Assembly (NCBI RefSeq): GCF_017745095.1
Contig: NZ_JAGHZZ010000008.1
Span: forward strand, 175,830-239,829
DNA length: 64,000 nt
Origin: Sporocytophaga sp.
GTDB lineage: Bacteria > Bacteroidota > Bacteroidia > Cytophagales > Cytophagaceae
Direction: 5' to 3'
Shown here: one piece after another, positions 44,816 through 63,774 of the stretch
Layout of the letters: the number at the start of each line of letters is the position of its first letter
Numbering within the stretch: the first letter of the stretch is position 1
Notes under the pieces: generated by a model
Database searches by the model: none
What the model was told of the DNA's origin: nothing
Seen by the model: only the letters and a program-made list of their open reading frames with translations
Program-made: the position numbers and the translations under genes

Positions 44816-44909
44816 TGTTACCGACTTTATAAATCTAACCAGGGAAAAATTCAAATAGTTATAAGGAAGGGATTTCGATGGGATAATAGACTATTAATCA
44901 AGAGATATG

Positions 44910-44986
44910 AAGCTTAAAGCAGAAAGCTTAAAGCAAAAAGTTATTAAAAAGTTAAAAGTAGAAAGCTTAAAGTTAAAAGTTTATAA
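44910..44986 (+). repeat. Heptamer repeat array R4
   Basis: About eleven units read on the plus strand, mostly AAGCTTA, AAGCAGA, AAAGTTA and AGTTAAA types, with one broken unit in the middle. It lies in the spacer between the small exported protein and proC, facing array R5. Confidence 0.8.
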
Positions 44987-45049: not shown

Positions 45050-45112
45050 ATTAAAAGCAGAAAGCAAAGGTCTAAAGACTACTTTAACTTTCTGCTTTTC
45101 GCTTTAAGCTTA
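45050..45112 (-). repeat. Heptamer repeat array R5, two opposed halves behind proC
   Basis: The right half (about 45082-45110) reads on the minus strand straight from the proC stop; the left half (45051-45069) reads on the plus strand. The halves pair through 12 bp (AAAAGCAGAAAG, 45053-45064, with 45088-45099), inside which GTCT/AGAC can also pair. On the minus strand TTAATTTTTAA follows, so the array also works as a likely proC terminator. Confidence 0.8.
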
Positions 45113-50614: not shown

Positions 50615-50649
50615 AAAGCGTAAAGCAGAAAGTTGAAAGCTAAAAGTTG
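50615..50649 (+). repeat. Heptamer repeat array R6
   Basis: Five units in a row on the plus strand: AAAGCGT, AAAGCAG, AAAGTTG, AAAGCTA, AAAGTTG. It lies upstream of guaA. The unit order AAAGCG-, AAAGCAG, AAAGTT- is shared with R5 and R8. Confidence 0.8.
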
Positions 50650-57818: not shown

Positions 57819-58895
57819 TTAAAATTTAGGACAAGGAATTACCATATCTTTCCTTCGTACTATTTTCCTGGTCTTAAAAACATATGACAATGAAAACTCA
57901 TGCGCTCCAGCAGAAGTTGTAGCAGTGAGGCTTGAAATAGTAAGATCATAACTATAGCCAATCCCCCATCTGTCTGTTCTCACTCCTACCATCACTACGA
58001 CTGCATCATGATTAAAATTTTCCTGATTATATCGTTTAAATGGTATACCTCTATACCAAAGTCCTGTTACAACAGGCTCATAACAGAGATATAATCCAAG
58101 ATCAAGCTGATCAAAATGCTCCTGATGCTTGTACACGAAAGTCGGAGAAATGCTTCTTTCTTTTTGCTCTCCGTATTTTTTCTTGTGCACACCCTCTTTC
58201 AGAAAAAATTTTATCCCTCCGTGAAGTGTTGTTTTTATTGGAAGTTTGTTTCCTCCTGTATTCAATGACTGATCTGGCTGATTGATATGACTGGATGCCA
58301 TTCCCATCCAGAATTTATTATTATAAAATAAAAAACCTGCACCAAAGTCAAAGTAATTAATATTCGAACTTTTACCAGCTACATCATATGGTATTCCTGG
58401 CACACCATCAATCTGACTTCCAAATGTCAGATTATAATAATCGATACTTCGTGAAACATAACCAAATTGTATCCCTGGCCTGAAAACCAATTTGTTCGAC
58501 AGATTTACACGAAAGGAATACATACCGCTTATAGAAGCCGACTTTAAGGCGCCCGCTCCTGCTTTATCCAGCATAGCCATCAACCCTACACCGCTTCTGA
58601 ACTTTTCAAAGTTATGATCTAAAGATGCAGCATAAGTAATAAAAGGCTTTGGCAAATTTACCCATTGATATCTGTTGTTAAACATCGCCCTGCTTTCATG
58701 AGTAGCACCAGCAAAAGCAGGGTTGAGATAAAGCGGAGCAGCATAGTATTGGGAGAACTGTGTATCCTGAGCATAGGTGGTTAAGCTTAAAGCGGAAAGC
58801 AGAAAGCAGAAAGGTAAAAGCTTAAAGCTTAAAGCAAAAAGCTTAAACTTTAAAGTGGAAAACTTAAAGCTCAAAAATGACTGAGCAAATGGCAT
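57819..58895 (-). CDS. PorP/SprF-family type IX secretion membrane protein
   Basis: An outer membrane beta-barrel protein of the PorP/SprF family, linked to type IX secretion of gliding adhesins. The mature start TQFSQYYAAPLYLNPAFAGATHESRAMFNNRYQW is the family hallmark. I take the ATG at 58893-58895 (358 residues): a -7 box (58983-58990) would start the transcript near 58977, excluding an ATG at 58985. The signal peptide is odd: residues 6 to about 38 are encoded by heptamer array R7 and repeat every seven residues (LSFKFST, LKFKLFA, LSFKLLP, FCFLLSA). It sits beside the gliding-type giant protein. Confidence 0.9.
   Translation of the reverse strand: MPFAQSFLSFKFSTLKFKLFALSFKLLPFCFLLSALSLTTYAQDTQFSQYYAAPLYLNPAFAGATHESRAMFNNRYQWVNLPKPFITYAASLDHNFEKFRSGVGLMAMLDKAGAGALKSASISGMYSFRVNLSNKLVFRPGIQFGYVSRSIDYYNLTFGSQIDGVPGIPYDVAGKSSNINYFDFGAGFLFYNNKFWMGMASSHINQPDQSLNTGGNKLPIKTTLHGGIKFFLKEGVHKKKYGEQKERSISPTFVYKHQEHFDQLDLGLYLCYEPVVTGLWYRGIPFKRYNQENFNHDAVVVMVGVRTDRWGIGYSYDLTISSLTATTSAGAHEFSLSYVFKTRKIVRRKDMVIPCPKF
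58782..58879 (+). repeat. Heptamer repeat array R7 inside the PorP/SprF-like gene
   Basis: Fourteen units in unbroken 7-nt register on the plus strand, among them AAAGCTT (three clean copies), AAAGCAG (two in a row), AAAGCGG, AAAGCAA and AAAGTGG. It starts about 16 nt into the coding region (minus strand) and encodes the signal peptide. This is the longest array in the window. Confidence 0.92.
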
Positions 58896-58982
58896 TCTAA
58901 ATCCTCTTGTTTTTGTTATTATTTCTTTTGTTAAAATTGAAAGTCTTAAAAACTTGAAGTATTTATTAAAACTTAAAATCAT

Positions 58983-58990
58983 CAAATTTA
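58983..58990 (-). promoter_or_regulatory. -7 box of the PorP/SprF-like gene
   Basis: TAAATTTG on the minus strand, at the inner edge of array R8. No clear -33 box, as that position is filled by heptamer repeats. Confidence 0.4.
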
Positions 58991-59038
58991 CTACTTTACA
59001 CTTTTAACTTTCAGCTTTTCGCTTTAAGCATTAAGCTC
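58990..59038 (-). repeat. Heptamer repeat array R8 (post-stop)
   Basis: Seven units on the minus strand start 3 nt after the stop of the PKD protein gene (AGCTTAA, TGCTTAA, AGCGAAA, AGCTGAA, AGTTAAA, AGTGTAA and a partial AGTAG). The unit order matches R5 with one unit more. It points toward R7, so R7 and R8 form an inverted pair around the start region of the PorP/SprF-like gene. Confidence 0.85.
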
Positions 59039-59040
59039 CG

Positions 59041-62000
59041 TTACCATATCAAAGTAATATCTCCAGCATACTCCTTCACCTTCCCACTTGGCATCTTCAC
59101 CTTGATCCTGTACACATATACATCTTCCTGGCAAAGCTGATTTTTATAGTATCCATCCCATCCAGTTGAAGAATCTCTTGTTTCAAAAAGCATTTCTCCC
59201 CACTTATTATAGATACCCATATAAAATTCAGTAACATCATGTAAGCGTGGATAGAAGACCTCATTTAGCCCACTTCCATCTTTTTTGCCTCCATTTGACC
59301 CTCCGTGATTTGGTGTAAAAGCATTCGGAATTTCAATTGAACCTCCTTCTTCAGCTATTGCAGCATCGTCCAACTCATAAATATTCACACATCCGAATTC
59401 ATTTTCAGCAGTAAGCTTTACTTTATATCTTCCTGATGTTTTATATACATGCGAAGGACTGACTTCTATAGAAGATGACTGATCTCCAAAATCCCATGTA
59501 TATTTTATAGCATTATTAGATTTATTATTAAAAAAAATCGGATCAGGGATAAAAACTATCTTTGGCTGGGCTATGAAATAAGCAACCGGCACAGGTCTTA
59601 CATGTATGATTGAATCTTTCAAAAGATAGTTTTCACCACCCAATCCTTTTGCTAATAACCTTACAGAATAATCGCCAGCAATGCCATAATTATGTTTTGG
59701 ATTTTTAAGTACTGATGTTTCACCATCACCAAATTCCCATAAATATTGTTCTGCAAATTTAGATGTATTATTAAACGATATTTCTAAAGGCAAACAGCCC
59801 TCCCCTTCACCAATGAAGCTGGCAATTGGCGCAGTCGGTAATACATTTATATCTTTTGTAAACGAGCTTGTGCACTTGCCTGTATTTAAAGAAAGTTTGA
59901 GTTTATATGTGCCATAGAAACCATAGTAGTGAACCTGAGGATCTCTAATAGAAGAATTGTTCCCATCACCGAAATCCCATTTAATATCAAAATCTCCTTC
60001 GACACTATTGTTAGTTATATAAATTGCAGAATCCGGCAATTGAATGATGCTTGATGCAACTGTGAATTTTGCTTCAGGACCTCCCCAGACTTCAACTGAC
60101 TTTGCCACTTCTGCATCACAACCATGCACGGATTTAACTTTCAGGACAACATTAAACAAAGTATCTGTTCCATTAGGGTTCTGGAATATATGCACTGGCG
60201 ATGTTTCCAATGAAGAACTGCCATCCCCAAAATCCCAGCTGTAATTTGATATTAATGAACCTGACGGTGCAAACTTTGTCTTGAAAGGACTACATCCTTC
60301 CATTTCCCCGACGAAATCAGGATAAACTTCAGGAAAAACTGAAATCTTTCTAATCATAGTATCTGCACAATTATTATCAGTACCAGAAATCAGTTTTACA
60401 AAAAACTCTTTAACCAAACCCGTCTTATTTTCAAATACGTGCGACACATCTCCAAACAAAGTATCCAGCAAAACGCCATCTCCAAAGTCCCATTTGTACC
60501 ATCCTGCCTTCTGACTGCTATTGGAAAAGCTAACTGATAAAGGACTGCATCCGAAAGAAATGGATTCATTAAAATCAGCCTCGGGTTTGGGATGTACAAT
60601 TACTGTGTCATAAACAGTTGCTGAGCAATTAAATGAAGATAAAGCATTAAGTGATATTCGAAATAAAGTATCTCTGTCTGTTATATTCTTAAAAATGTGT
60701 GTGGGTGTTGATGAAGAGGAACTAAAACCATCAGCGAAATCCCAGTTAAACTTATATTGTGTTCCTTCGGAAGATAAACCCACTATTAGAGGATGGCATC
60801 CGTCCTTAGGTTTAGCTATAATTTTAAACTCAGGTTCAGGATATACAATTATAGTTTTACTCTTTTCTAAAAAACATCCATGATCCGTAATAGCTCTGAT
60901 CGATACCGTTTCATCCTTCACTATTCCAGTCTTGTTCACAAAAGTGTGATTGAACTCCATTGAATTAACAATAGTATCTTTTCCCTGAATTGTCCACTTA
61001 AAGGAAGAAGCTAAAGAAGAATTATTAGATAGCTTTACAATAGAAGGGCTGCATTGAGGTACCTGAGGTGTGAACAAGAAATCAGATACAGGAGCCGGAT
61101 AAACAGTAACATTTTGTATTAACGTATCCAAACAACCCTTATCAGATTTGGCAATAAGTTTCAAAGGAAATTCCAGAACATCGCTCCCTTTATTTAAATA
61201 AGTATGAGAGATCGTATCTAAATTATCTGAAGTAACAAGTCCCGGAGAGCCATCTCCAAAACTCCAATCATATGCAAAAGTATTTTGCGATTTGTTCGCA
61301 ATCTTAACATCAAAGGGTGTGCAGCCATTCCAATTATCTGACTCAAAAGAAGGAACCGGCAAGGATGAAACAACAGTATAAATTGTGTCTTTCCTCTTAC
61401 ATATATCAGTAGAAGCCTCAATGATTACTTCGTAACTTCCGGGAGCATTATATAAATGAACGGGTTCTTTTACCGAAGCAGCTGCTCCATCTCCAAAGGT
61501 CCATGACCAGGATGTAATTTCTGTTCCCGGCGTATATGGACTAAGATATTTTGCAGGAATTGGCCTTTCAAAAGTGCCATCGGGTAATTGCCATCCAACA
61601 GACAAATGATCATCCAGATTACTTTCTTTGTGCAGTGCTTCAATGTAGTATCTCTGATTTGCTTTCAAAAAAACTGGCAATGACTGCTGAGAAATATATC
61701 TGTTCCACTGTCTTAATGTAGTGGTACCAGACACATAAGCTATTTTTGTTTTATCAGAAACCTTTGCACTTGAACTAAGCCAAAGCTCAGAATCTCCATT
61801 ACTTGAGATCCAGAAGGTATATATGCCGTCTACAGGAGGACATATAAATCCATATATTCTGGAGCCATAATTATCCCCAATATTAACAGGACCTTCAAAA
61901 TAATTGGTTAGCAATGAAGTTCGGGACGGCTTATTCGGAAAGTTAACATTGGCTGTAAGTGTGGCAACAGTCGCAGCTCCGGTGATATTATCCCATTGTT

Positions 62001-63564
62001 CTCTCAAAATTGATCCTGTGGCACAAGATACTGCAGGCAATAGATCTGATAGATTTTTAAACTCATTTATATCTCCCAGACAAACTGGGTCAGAGGAAAT
62101 ATTAAAAGAAATATCCGGAGGAACAATTACTGCGGCACTTCTTTCAGAAATACAGTTAAGACTATTACGCCCTATCAACTTAACACTATAGTAACCAGGT
62201 TCAAAATCAATAGTCCATGGGCCACTACCCGATTGCGTTATTCCATTACCAAAATCCCAGGCAAAAGAAGATGCGTTTGTGGAAATATTTTTAAACAGAA
62301 CAGAGGCCTTTCCACAACCTGTAGGTTTATCAAAAGTAAAATTCGCTTGTGGAAGTCCTAGCACGGAAACTGATGAAGTAGAAGTATCAGAGCAGCCAAG
62401 AGCTTTGTCCTGAACTGCAGCCATTTTGATAGTATAATTTCCCGCAGTGTTATATTTATGGTAAAGTGAAGGATTATTATTTTCTACCCAGCCCGTTCCA
62501 TCACCGAAATTCCATCTAAATCTGTTTGCTCCACCAGTTGAAGTATTTTGAAAAAAAACTGAATCCCCAGCGCAAATAGCCGAAGTTGAAGTGTTAAATT
62601 GAGAAAAAGGAGGATCAATGATTTCTACTTTCATAGAAGTCTGATTTACTCCACAAAAGTTGGAATCCAGGAGCGTGATATTATAAATGGTACCGGGAGC
62701 ACCGGTAATATAAGCTTTAAGAGACTTGTTTACAGGAGTTGCCTGAAGCCATGGGGTTGAAATTCCCAAATCAGAGGAAATCCATTTTATTTTCCTTGCC
62801 TGCTTATTATTACAATTATATTTAGAAACATCCTTAAATGTCACCGAATCTGCCCCGCAAATTTGCTGCACAGACGCACTGATGATAGCAGAATCAGTAT
62901 CCCAGAAATTAAAAGGACCGTAACTGGCAAATGATGCATCGCACAAACCTGTCGCAGTGAGTCGGACAATCATATTACAACTGGATGTTCCTTTTTGGTA
63001 AGTATGCAACATTAACTGACCCGCATTGGAAGCATCAACCAGATCTTTAGTCCCATCTCCCCATGACCATTCAAATTTTGTAAATGCCGAAGTGTTGGTG
63101 GAAGTGTTTTTGAAGGTTAGAATATTAGGGGCACAGGTACTGGCTCCTATGGTAGGCGGCAAAGCTGCTGCACCCGCTTTCCTGTCATTAATAAAAGTTC
63201 CCGTTATTGTTTTCTTGGTACAGCCTGCTTTGGTTTCGGAAAGTGTTATTGTAAATTTTCCCAAACCAAATGAGTGAGAAAGAATAGTATTGGAAGGCCA
63301 GAATACACCTGATACTACAGCAGAACCATCACCAAAATCAATGGTATAATTCTGAATGTCATAAGGAGACATCAACTCTAGATTGTATATATCCGGATCA
63401 GTTTCGTTATCGATACAATTGACCCACGTTTGGGAAGAGCTGGGATTTGCATAGGTTAAATCATATAATTCTGGTAAAGCACACTGACCTAAGGCCTCAA
63501 AAGAGCCTAGACTCAATAAAAGTAAAACACAAATTTTCCAGGTAAATGATATTTTTTCACGCAT
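59041..63564 (-). CDS. Giant PKD/PA14 surface protein with gliding-type sorting domain
   Basis: A 1507-residue secreted protein. The ATG at 63562-63564 gives a signal peptide ending EALGQ (about 26). Many PKD-type beta domains follow, each with the WDFGDG-like turn (FRWNFGDGTGW, YKWDFGDGVLL, YSWDFGDGSSS, IKWDFGDGNNS). A PA14 domain lies at about 515-675 (GFICPPVDGIYTFWISSNGDSELWL). The last 100 residues (IPNAFTPNHGG, YPRLHDVTEFYMGIYNKWGEMLFET, GWDGYYKNQLCQEDVYVYRIK, YAGDITLIW) are the gliding-motility-associated C-terminal domain, a type B type IX secretion signal. Likely an adhesin or glycan-binding surface protein, exported with help of the PorP/SprF-like neighbour. Confidence 0.93.
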   Translation of the reverse strand: MREKISFTWKICVLLLLSLGSFEALGQCALPELYDLTYANPSSSQTWVNCIDNETDPDIYNLELMSPYDIQNYTIDFGDGSAVVSGVFWPSNTILSHSFGLGKFTITLSETKAGCTKKTITGTFINDRKAGAAALPPTIGASTCAPNILTFKNTSTNTSAFTKFEWSWGDGTKDLVDASNAGQLMLHTYQKGTSSCNMIVRLTATGLCDASFASYGPFNFWDTDSAIISASVQQICGADSVTFKDVSKYNCNNKQARKIKWISSDLGISTPWLQATPVNKSLKAYITGAPGTIYNITLLDSNFCGVNQTSMKVEIIDPPFSQFNTSTSAICAGDSVFFQNTSTGGANRFRWNFGDGTGWVENNNPSLYHKYNTAGNYTIKMAAVQDKALGCSDTSTSSVSVLGLPQANFTFDKPTGCGKASVLFKNISTNASSFAWDFGNGITQSGSGPWTIDFEPGYYSVKLIGRNSLNCISERSAAVIVPPDISFNISSDPVCLGDINEFKNLSDLLPAVSCATGSILREQWDNITGAATVATLTANVNFPNKPSRTSLLTNYFEGPVNIGDNYGSRIYGFICPPVDGIYTFWISSNGDSELWLSSSAKVSDKTKIAYVSGTTTLRQWNRYISQQSLPVFLKANQRYYIEALHKESNLDDHLSVGWQLPDGTFERPIPAKYLSPYTPGTEITSWSWTFGDGAAASVKEPVHLYNAPGSYEVIIEASTDICKRKDTIYTVVSSLPVPSFESDNWNGCTPFDVKIANKSQNTFAYDWSFGDGSPGLVTSDNLDTISHTYLNKGSDVLEFPLKLIAKSDKGCLDTLIQNVTVYPAPVSDFLFTPQVPQCSPSIVKLSNNSSLASSFKWTIQGKDTIVNSMEFNHTFVNKTGIVKDETVSIRAITDHGCFLEKSKTIIVYPEPEFKIIAKPKDGCHPLIVGLSSEGTQYKFNWDFADGFSSSSSTPTHIFKNITDRDTLFRISLNALSSFNCSATVYDTVIVHPKPEADFNESISFGCSPLSVSFSNSSQKAGWYKWDFGDGVLLDTLFGDVSHVFENKTGLVKEFFVKLISGTDNNCADTMIRKISVFPEVYPDFVGEMEGCSPFKTKFAPSGSLISNYSWDFGDGSSSLETSPVHIFQNPNGTDTLFNVVLKVKSVHGCDAEVAKSVEVWGGPEAKFTVASSIIQLPDSAIYITNNSVEGDFDIKWDFGDGNNSSIRDPQVHYYGFYGTYKLKLSLNTGKCTSSFTKDINVLPTAPIASFIGEGEGCLPLEISFNNTSKFAEQYLWEFGDGETSVLKNPKHNYGIAGDYSVRLLAKGLGGENYLLKDSIIHVRPVPVAYFIAQPKIVFIPDPIFFNNKSNNAIKYTWDFGDQSSSIEVSPSHVYKTSGRYKVKLTAENEFGCVNIYELDDAAIAEEGGSIEIPNAFTPNHGGSNGGKKDGSGLNEVFYPRLHDVTEFYMGIYNKWGEMLFETRDSSTGWDGYYKNQLCQEDVYVYRIKVKMPSGKVKEYAGDITLIW

Positions 63565-63774
63565 AAATACAATCCAACCTATCAAAATATATCCGTTAAA
63601 CAATTGATTTGGTGTGCCTTTTTTGCAGAAAACAACTTCACAAGATAATCAAAAAGTAAGAATGATAGAACTTATTTTGATGGATTTCCATTTCAAAAAG
63701 GTGGATTCATGGTATATTCTTATTAAAGTTTCAGATTCTCAGCTTTTCAAAAAAATAATACACAAAAAAAGGGT

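Follow-up and report, generated by a model that had tools for sequence, protein, structure and literature searches.

The porP locus

The window analysed here is a stretch of 64,000 nucleotides on contig C63 of a genome (G000) of the soil bacterium Sporocytophaga, which was compared with the other three Sporocytophaga genomes G001, G002 and G003. Gene calls are the longest ORFs that begin with ATG and reach 90 aa or more; no trained gene finder was used. The features considered are listed in Table 1. The porP product matched both family profiles, Pfam PF11751 (225.5 bits for a cut-off of 22.3) and TIGR03519 (251.5 bits for a cut-off of 90.55). The PKD-repeat protein encoded upstream reaches 34.8 bits for its CHU_C domain (Pfam cut-off 27) and 33.7 bits against TIGR04131, just under the cut-off of 35. 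According to PMC9143113, PorP-like proteins pair with type B CTD substrates and sprF is adjacent to sprB; comparably, porP of the window adjoins the gene of a CHU_C-domain protein, and this neighbour is possibly a type B T9SS substrate partnering the PorP protein.

Table 1. Location of the features of the window discussed in the text
Feature	Position	Strand	Basis or remark
PorP/SprF-family outer-membrane protein gene (porP), 358 aa	57819..58895	-	PF11751, TIGR03519, orthologues
Predicted signal peptide, 42 codons, MPFAQS...LSLTTYA before QDTQFSQYY	58770..58895	-	sequence
Coding heptamer array (GCTTTNN)n, about 13 degenerate units	58782..58872	-	encodes most of the n- and h-region
porP ATG start codon	58893..58895	-	same place in four Sporocytophaga orthologues
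porP leader between both arrays, presumed ribosome binding site inside	58896..58992	-	sequence
Opposite-sense heptamer array (AAAGCNN)n	58993..59039	-	begins at most about 8 nt from the upstream gene's stop codon
PKD-repeat protein with CHU_C C-terminal domain, upstream of porP	59041..63603	-	Pfam
Two adjacent family arrays (44909-44941 and 44948-44980)	44909..44980	+	register scan
Opposite-sense partner of the preceding arrays	45087..45112	-	register scan
Further family array	50615..50647	+	register scan

The coding array begins after the first eight codons of porP, ATG counted; with its edges, the region reads FLSFKFSTLKFKLFALSFKLLPFCFLLSALSLTTYAQ and runs to the PorP mature start QDTQFSQYY. 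Tandem Repeats Finder delimits it at 58783-58875 with a period of 21 (3 x 7) and a score of 88, the register scan at 58782-58870 with a score of 26, which is the highest among 80 arrays found in 45 segments of G000. No array was found by the register scan in ten Markov-shuffled copies of the window. The original prediction of a repeat array in frame just after the start codon of a PorP/SprF-like gene is thus borne out by both programs and both profiles. Its count of fourteen heptamers holds in part: fourteen units can be written in register, of which only 12 have at most one mismatch in the 5-base core, and the array itself holds about 13.

Periodicity was measured as DNA identity at lag 7. 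It amounts to 0.71 for the signal-peptide DNA of G000. Base shuffles of this DNA reach 0.33, and when the peptide is back-translated at random the value is 0.44 (maximum 0.60 of 5000). The three congeneric orthologues give 0.63, 0.61 and 0.65, and in each of the four the value exceeds the back-translated controls (0.40-0.44) with p <= 2e-4. The seven-base period is therefore held in the DNA beyond what the peptide demands.

Signal peptide and translation start

The mature start was placed by the QD(P/T)QFSQ-like motif common to relatives, and cleavage is expected at YA|QD, followed by export of the porP product. The hydropathy (over 11 residues) of the G000 signal peptide is 2.41, at the low end of ten paralogues; the four porP signal peptides range from 2.24 to 2.42, the paralogues from 2.35 to 3.73. 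Both hydropathy and charge of the N-terminus are compatible with a signal peptide, in agreement with the earlier suggestion that the seven-residue repeat is hydrophobic enough to act as one.

Ahead of the array, each of the four orthologues has the conserved ATG and, at codon 8, a TTG. Within or after the array and before the mature start, no in-frame ATG, GTG or TTG is found in G000, G002 or G003. In G001, in-frame ATG, TTG and GTG codons stand at distances of 13, 11 and 3 residues from the mature start, which would leave no room for a signal peptide. Any ATG, GTG or TTG start of G000 porP must consequently precede the array, which must therefore be translated; the conserved ATG is probably the codon used.

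We consider it highly probable that the array belongs to a genus-wide heptamer family and that its GCTTT-sense arm, lying past the porP start, is translated as a Sec signal peptide. As a seven-base unit is not divisible into triplets, the array gives the same seven-residue repeat in every frame; this repeat, A-L/F-x-F-x-L-x, would supply the hydrophobic stretch with scattered Lys that a signal peptide needs. Units that would place a TAA in frame appear to be avoided, and the length difference between species, three units or 21 nt, keeps the frame.

A dispersed heptamer family in Sporocytophaga

The distribution of the AAAGCNN/GCTTTNN heptamer was analysed in the four genomes. Exact matches to the three-unit pattern number 86 in G000, 38 in G001, 51 in G002 and 136 in G003, whereas the pattern reversed as a control gives 0, 2, 0 and 0. 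Over 59 genomes searched, own included, the pattern is present in 13, and outside Sporocytophaga only G005 (19) and G014 (9) have more than two matches. The units of the porP array agree with this dispersed family. In the window, Tandem Repeats Finder also reports a short array of a different heptamer, CTTACAA, at 1909-1941.

AAAGC-sense arrays are located close behind genes: over the four genomes together, 87 of the 98 whose preceding gene has the same direction start at most 25 nt from its stop (49/50 in G000, 16/16 in G002, 15/19 in G001 and 7/13 in G003). The G001, G002 and G003 counts come from 30 loci each, out of 38, 51 and 136 pattern matches, and arrays inside called genes (5, 4, 6 and 4 over the four genomes) were left out. 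This placement is weakest in G003, where six arrays lie 142-976 nt from the called stop. GCTTT-sense arms of G000 are found 7-726 nt before the next gene, 6 of 24 being within 50 nt of a start; two ORFs that have such an arm 7-8 nt ahead, for example, are presumably ArgC-like and ABC-permease-like. Only 2 of the 80 G000 arrays lie between divergent genes. Neighbouring arrays within 300 nt of each other follow the order AAAGC then GCTTT in 26 of 31 G000 pairs and never the reverse order. Among the arrays examined, porP alone clearly has its GCTTT arm past the start codon.

The two senses differ in coding content. In G000 arrays of at least 33 nt, porP and the charged-stretch gene described below being left out, GCTTT-sense arrays give hydrophobic peptides (median max-KD 1.56 over 10 residues, 104/171 frames open), and AAAGC-sense arrays give charged ones (median max-KD -1.29, 59/171 frames open), for a background max-KD of 0.15. 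What makes the porP arm hydrophobic is the heptamer itself, when its GCTTT direction is read. For the AAAGC direction there is a protein of about 500 residues, common to the four genomes, in whose C-terminal region such arrays encode KLKAES-type repeats (G000:C3:47622-47868, L023; L203 in G001, L181 in G002, L216 in G003), and a few further proteins end in KLKAES-type tails. A Pfam scan of this protein from an internal Met (481 aa) gave no match.

At G000:C6:48819-49276 (L027, L028) two like-oriented AAAGC arrays are 212 nt apart, and no called gene is nearby. At G003:C5:439314-440066 pattern matches recur at 171-nt steps, and at G003 C4:272556-273037 at steps of about 152-159 nt, which looks like tandem amplification of entire array-spacer-array units.

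Orthologues and other PorP loci

The porP orthologues of the three congeners are 91-94% identical, and the large open frames of the four genes are 358-394 aa long. ATG, FLS(S)K, array and QD(P/T)Q(F/Y)SQ follow each other in G001, G002 and G003 in the same order as in G000. The arrays of G001 and G002 are 21 nt shorter (three heptamers, seven codons), and the number of codons beside the cleavage site also varies slightly. In G003 (L067), a second copy of leader, ATG and array start lies in tandem upstream (period 146 nt, 83% identity over 143 nt), possibly the outcome of array-mediated recombination; this extra copy ends after 26 codons, as a truncated 26-residue peptide. The G002 leader (L068) is the only one of the four with a near-perfect hairpin, AAAGTCCTTCTCC...GGAGAAGGACTTT, between both arrays.

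For comparison we collected 60 other PorP loci: 18 G000 paralogues, 16 from named contigs and 26 from relatives. L093 begins at the end of a contig; in the other 59 we scanned the region that reaches from 150 nt ahead of the first position of the mature-part match to 20 nt beyond it. No GCTTT/AAAGC array was found there in any of the 59, and their lag-7 identity does not exceed 0.40. The farthest in-frame ATG of these genes lies mostly 18-31 residues before the mature start, with the exceptions of L017 (8), L095 (42) and L004, L008, L087 and L092 (none). Sporocytophaga porP is unlike the other PorPs examined in its predicted, repeat-built signal peptide, the conserved ATG of the four orthologues standing 37-44 residues from the mature start. 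Another in-frame ATG is found farther upstream in G000, at 71 residues, and in G003, at 66.

These comparisons bear on the proposal that a non-coding repeat was recruited as coding sequence at the 5' end of the gene. The congeners carry the same N-terminus together with its heptamer periodicity, the 59 other PorP loci examined lack the array, and a translation start after the array is barred in G000, G002 and G003, all of which supports the proposal; the family itself is genus-wide and mostly intergenic. The array is common to all four genomes, and the order of events, repeat first and coding use afterwards, is the one we infer.

The four genomes were also searched with the porP signal peptide for other genes with an array-built signal peptide, and no clear case was found. 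The search gave 30 matches at E <= 10, of which the four large open frames are the porP orthologues and the rest are at most 111 aa; as the G002 orthologue itself reaches only E 0.05, weaker cases could be missed. Two candidates for an N-terminal array, L187 in G001, which we take to be ArgC-like, and an ORF that we assume to be acyl-AMP-ligase-like (L172 in G002), were judged from sequence to be spurious upstream extensions.

Evolution of the array and possible avoidance of stop codons

Between G000 and G003, the first 38 codons of porP have a dS of 0.15 and a dN of 0.16, compared to 1.01 and 0.024 for the mature part. Between G001 and G002, the values are 0.03 and 0.23 for the signal peptide, based on very few synonymous changes, and 0.73 and 0.022 for the mature part; these values give no sign of constraint on the amino acids of the signal peptide. 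Low dS combined with high dN would fit repeat DNA under homogenisation, or under constraint at the DNA level, and only loosely required to stay open and hydrophobic.

TAA-making units were counted in the four orthologues pooled: there are none among 14 units at the stop-prone register, versus 18 AA-ending units out of 31 at the other two (Fisher p 1.6e-4, the orthologues not being independent). Taken singly, the test gives p 0.08 in G000 (count 5/8), 0.07 in G003, 0.48 in G002 and 0.20 in G001. Intergenic units make the same comparison possible outside porP, with 73/283 versus 0/14 (p 0.025), porP units being accepted at up to one mismatch and units elsewhere only as exact GCTTT/ACTTT. These counts suggest selection against in-frame stops in the porP array, with a significance that depends on pooling related sequences. 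The 21-nt length difference, which could reflect one event, is a weak sign of frame selection; in a simulation, some 21-nt losses from the array still produced a stop.

Alternative explanations

Could the array be kept for a role as nucleic acid? Together with the opposite-sense array it would form an RNA stem enclosing the porP ribosome binding site and start codon and controlling translation or termination, the signal peptide being a by-product. The two arrays are 86% complementary over 43 nt of the coding array, the junction folds better than dinucleotide shuffles (z -4.8 in G000, -5.1 in G003, -7.2 in G002 and -4.9 in G001), the dS of the array is low, and the pairing order of G000 arrays described above points the same way. 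Against this, the variable dinucleotides of paired arms match in 26 cases for 27.4 expected (26 pairs, p 0.75); the pairing thus follows from one heptamer used both ways and shows no sign of co-evolution, and the fold of G002 contains another hairpin in the leader. Strictly inverted, co-evolving arms were accordingly rejected, since paired dinucleotides match no better than those of shuffled pairs. A stem does not compete with translation of the array either: a regulatory stem at the porP junction is possible and compatible with a coding role, and we regard a purely nucleic-acid role as unlikely, although it is the most serious of the alternatives.

The three others have far less in their favour. 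An in-frame array near a start recalls phase-variable contingency loci, in which slippage of one heptamer would shift the frame and switch the surface protein off; indeed, when 7 or 14 nt were taken out or put in at the sites sampled, a stop followed within 12-76 codons. The units are nevertheless degenerate, the longest perfect tract being 19 nt in G000 and 13-19 nt in the other three, the gene is in frame in all four species genomes and the length difference within the array is 21 nt, which makes phase variation very improbable. It is harder still to believe that the array is leader RNA, with translation starting after it or at a non-standard codon inside it. The in-frame ATG, TTG and GTG codons of G001, in or after the array, speak for this; they leave too few residues ahead of the mature start, G000, G002 and G003 have no such codon, and the conserved ATG stands before the array in all four. 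Finally, a signal peptide rich in Leu, Phe, Ser and Lys might resemble the heptamer by chance, and its back-translations do already show some lag-7 identity. The observed value tops all 5000 of them, p is equally low in the three orthologues, and the units agree with the dispersed family; coincidence has next to no chance of being the explanation.

Comparison with known heptamer repeats

In the accessible part of PMC4692102, the heptamers GGGAATC and GGGGA(C/T)T of Xanthomonas and Nostoc are described as lying mainly between genes: those on the coding strand sit at stop codons or overlap them, those on the non-coding strand precede ORFs, and few are found between divergent genes. They are under-represented in coding regions, and repeats near protein ends are attributed there to Lin and Kussell 2012. 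Sporocytophaga arrays resemble these repeats, as far as that part describes them, in being dispersed, mostly intergenic, placed at stop codons and rare between divergent genes (2/80). For the trait of lying at most 50 bp upstream of ORFs, the G000 counterpart is the 6/24 arms near a start reported above. The Sporocytophaga arrays differ from the repeats of that account in that arms are often paired, AAAGC then GCTTT, that one arm would serve as signal peptide, and that the unit AAAGCNN has no G-run or G-tract, so that no quadruplex is expected. An AT-rich heptamer with a layout near that of quadruplex-forming repeats suggests that the layout needs no quadruplex. The term "signal peptide" does not occur in the accessible text of PMC4692102.

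The portion of PMC4679880 at hand deals with TAACTGA heptamers of Beggiatoaceae, cyanobacteria and five Bacteroidetes, in which the strand decides coding capacity. Eleven ORFs hold reverse repeats, several near protein ends and mostly in hypothetical proteins, and in the main genome studied the repeats lie mostly just upstream of start codons. Both systems are heptamer arrays with different units, and signal peptides go unmentioned in that portion for TAACTGA. A literature search recognised no report of signal peptides made from heptamer repeats in the titles and abstract openings of the best-ranked matches, subscription journals being mostly outside its coverage; the best-ranked matches to raw sequence strings looked unrelated. 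The porP feature is a variant of known heptamer repeats, whose novelty would be an arm that serves as a predicted signal peptide.

If read as proposed, the locus offers a concrete route by which a new protein-targeting sequence may arise from non-coding repeat DNA, the seven-base period making the coding content of the repeat independent of frame. Signal peptides of relatives are difficult to align; their turnover could then be traced back to a source.

Other heptamers and signal peptides in Bacteroidia

As a heptamer gives the same seven-residue peptide in all three frames, any hydrophobic, stop-poor heptamer at the 5' end of a gene could replace a signal peptide. A heptamer that lands or expands there would create a new one, and the opposite strand of the Sporocytophaga repeat would account for charged C-terminal stretches. 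We lean towards the view that signal peptides in Bacteroidia have repeatedly drawn on intergenic heptanucleotide repeats as raw material, on GCTTTNN in Sporocytophaga porP and on TGCCTAC in nine or more proteins from three other families.

In G020, a genome of the same order, 194 matches of a different heptamer, CGAAANN, were found. At one locus (G020:C5, about 69114-69300, L319), 14 nt separate the end of such an array from the ATG of a PorP gene, with which the array is open in frame. The signal peptide of this PorP contains five TGCC units of period 7, with a lag-7 identity not above control (p 0.12). Two heptamer families, CGAAANN and a TGCCTAC type, occur here at one 5' end.

A class-wide search with the TGCCTAC-type signal peptide matched 51 of 295 genomes, with many places in short open frames. 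The query had a typical signal-peptide start and a PorP mature start at its end and favours N-terminal places; its matches therefore show the existence, not the frequency, of heptamer-built signal peptides. Fifty loci were examined, 30 as returned and 20 picked by open-frame size or interest. The TGCCTAC-type motif was held by 22 ORFs of at least 180 aa, of which 13, picked by eye, were signal-peptide-like. Nine of these 13 exceed the back-translation control at lag 7 (p < 0.05, uncorrected); L319, L283, L298 and L280 do not. For L298, L280 and L317 the fragment tested had no ATG start; the first codon of L306 is GTG. The nine belong to three families of the class (f25, f36, f39). Pfam identified a second PorP (L303), a CotH/LTD protein (L304), a cyclophilin (L314) and an M28 peptidase (L301) among them, as well as a Por secretion tail in L278 and L317; L306, L307 and L316 had no Pfam match.

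The cyclophilin, from genome G183, has four orthologues in one genus, 73-77% identical to it in the matched mature part and with signal peptides unrelated by eye. The G243 orthologue has two TGCC units and a lag-7 identity of 0.55. Over 12 PorP loci of this genus, four TGCC units are seen only in the query's own. The cyclophilin loci (L335-L339) include one with TGCCTAC units, one with TGCCATY-like units and one with a palindrome-like sequence, CTCCTTCTCC...GGAGAA.
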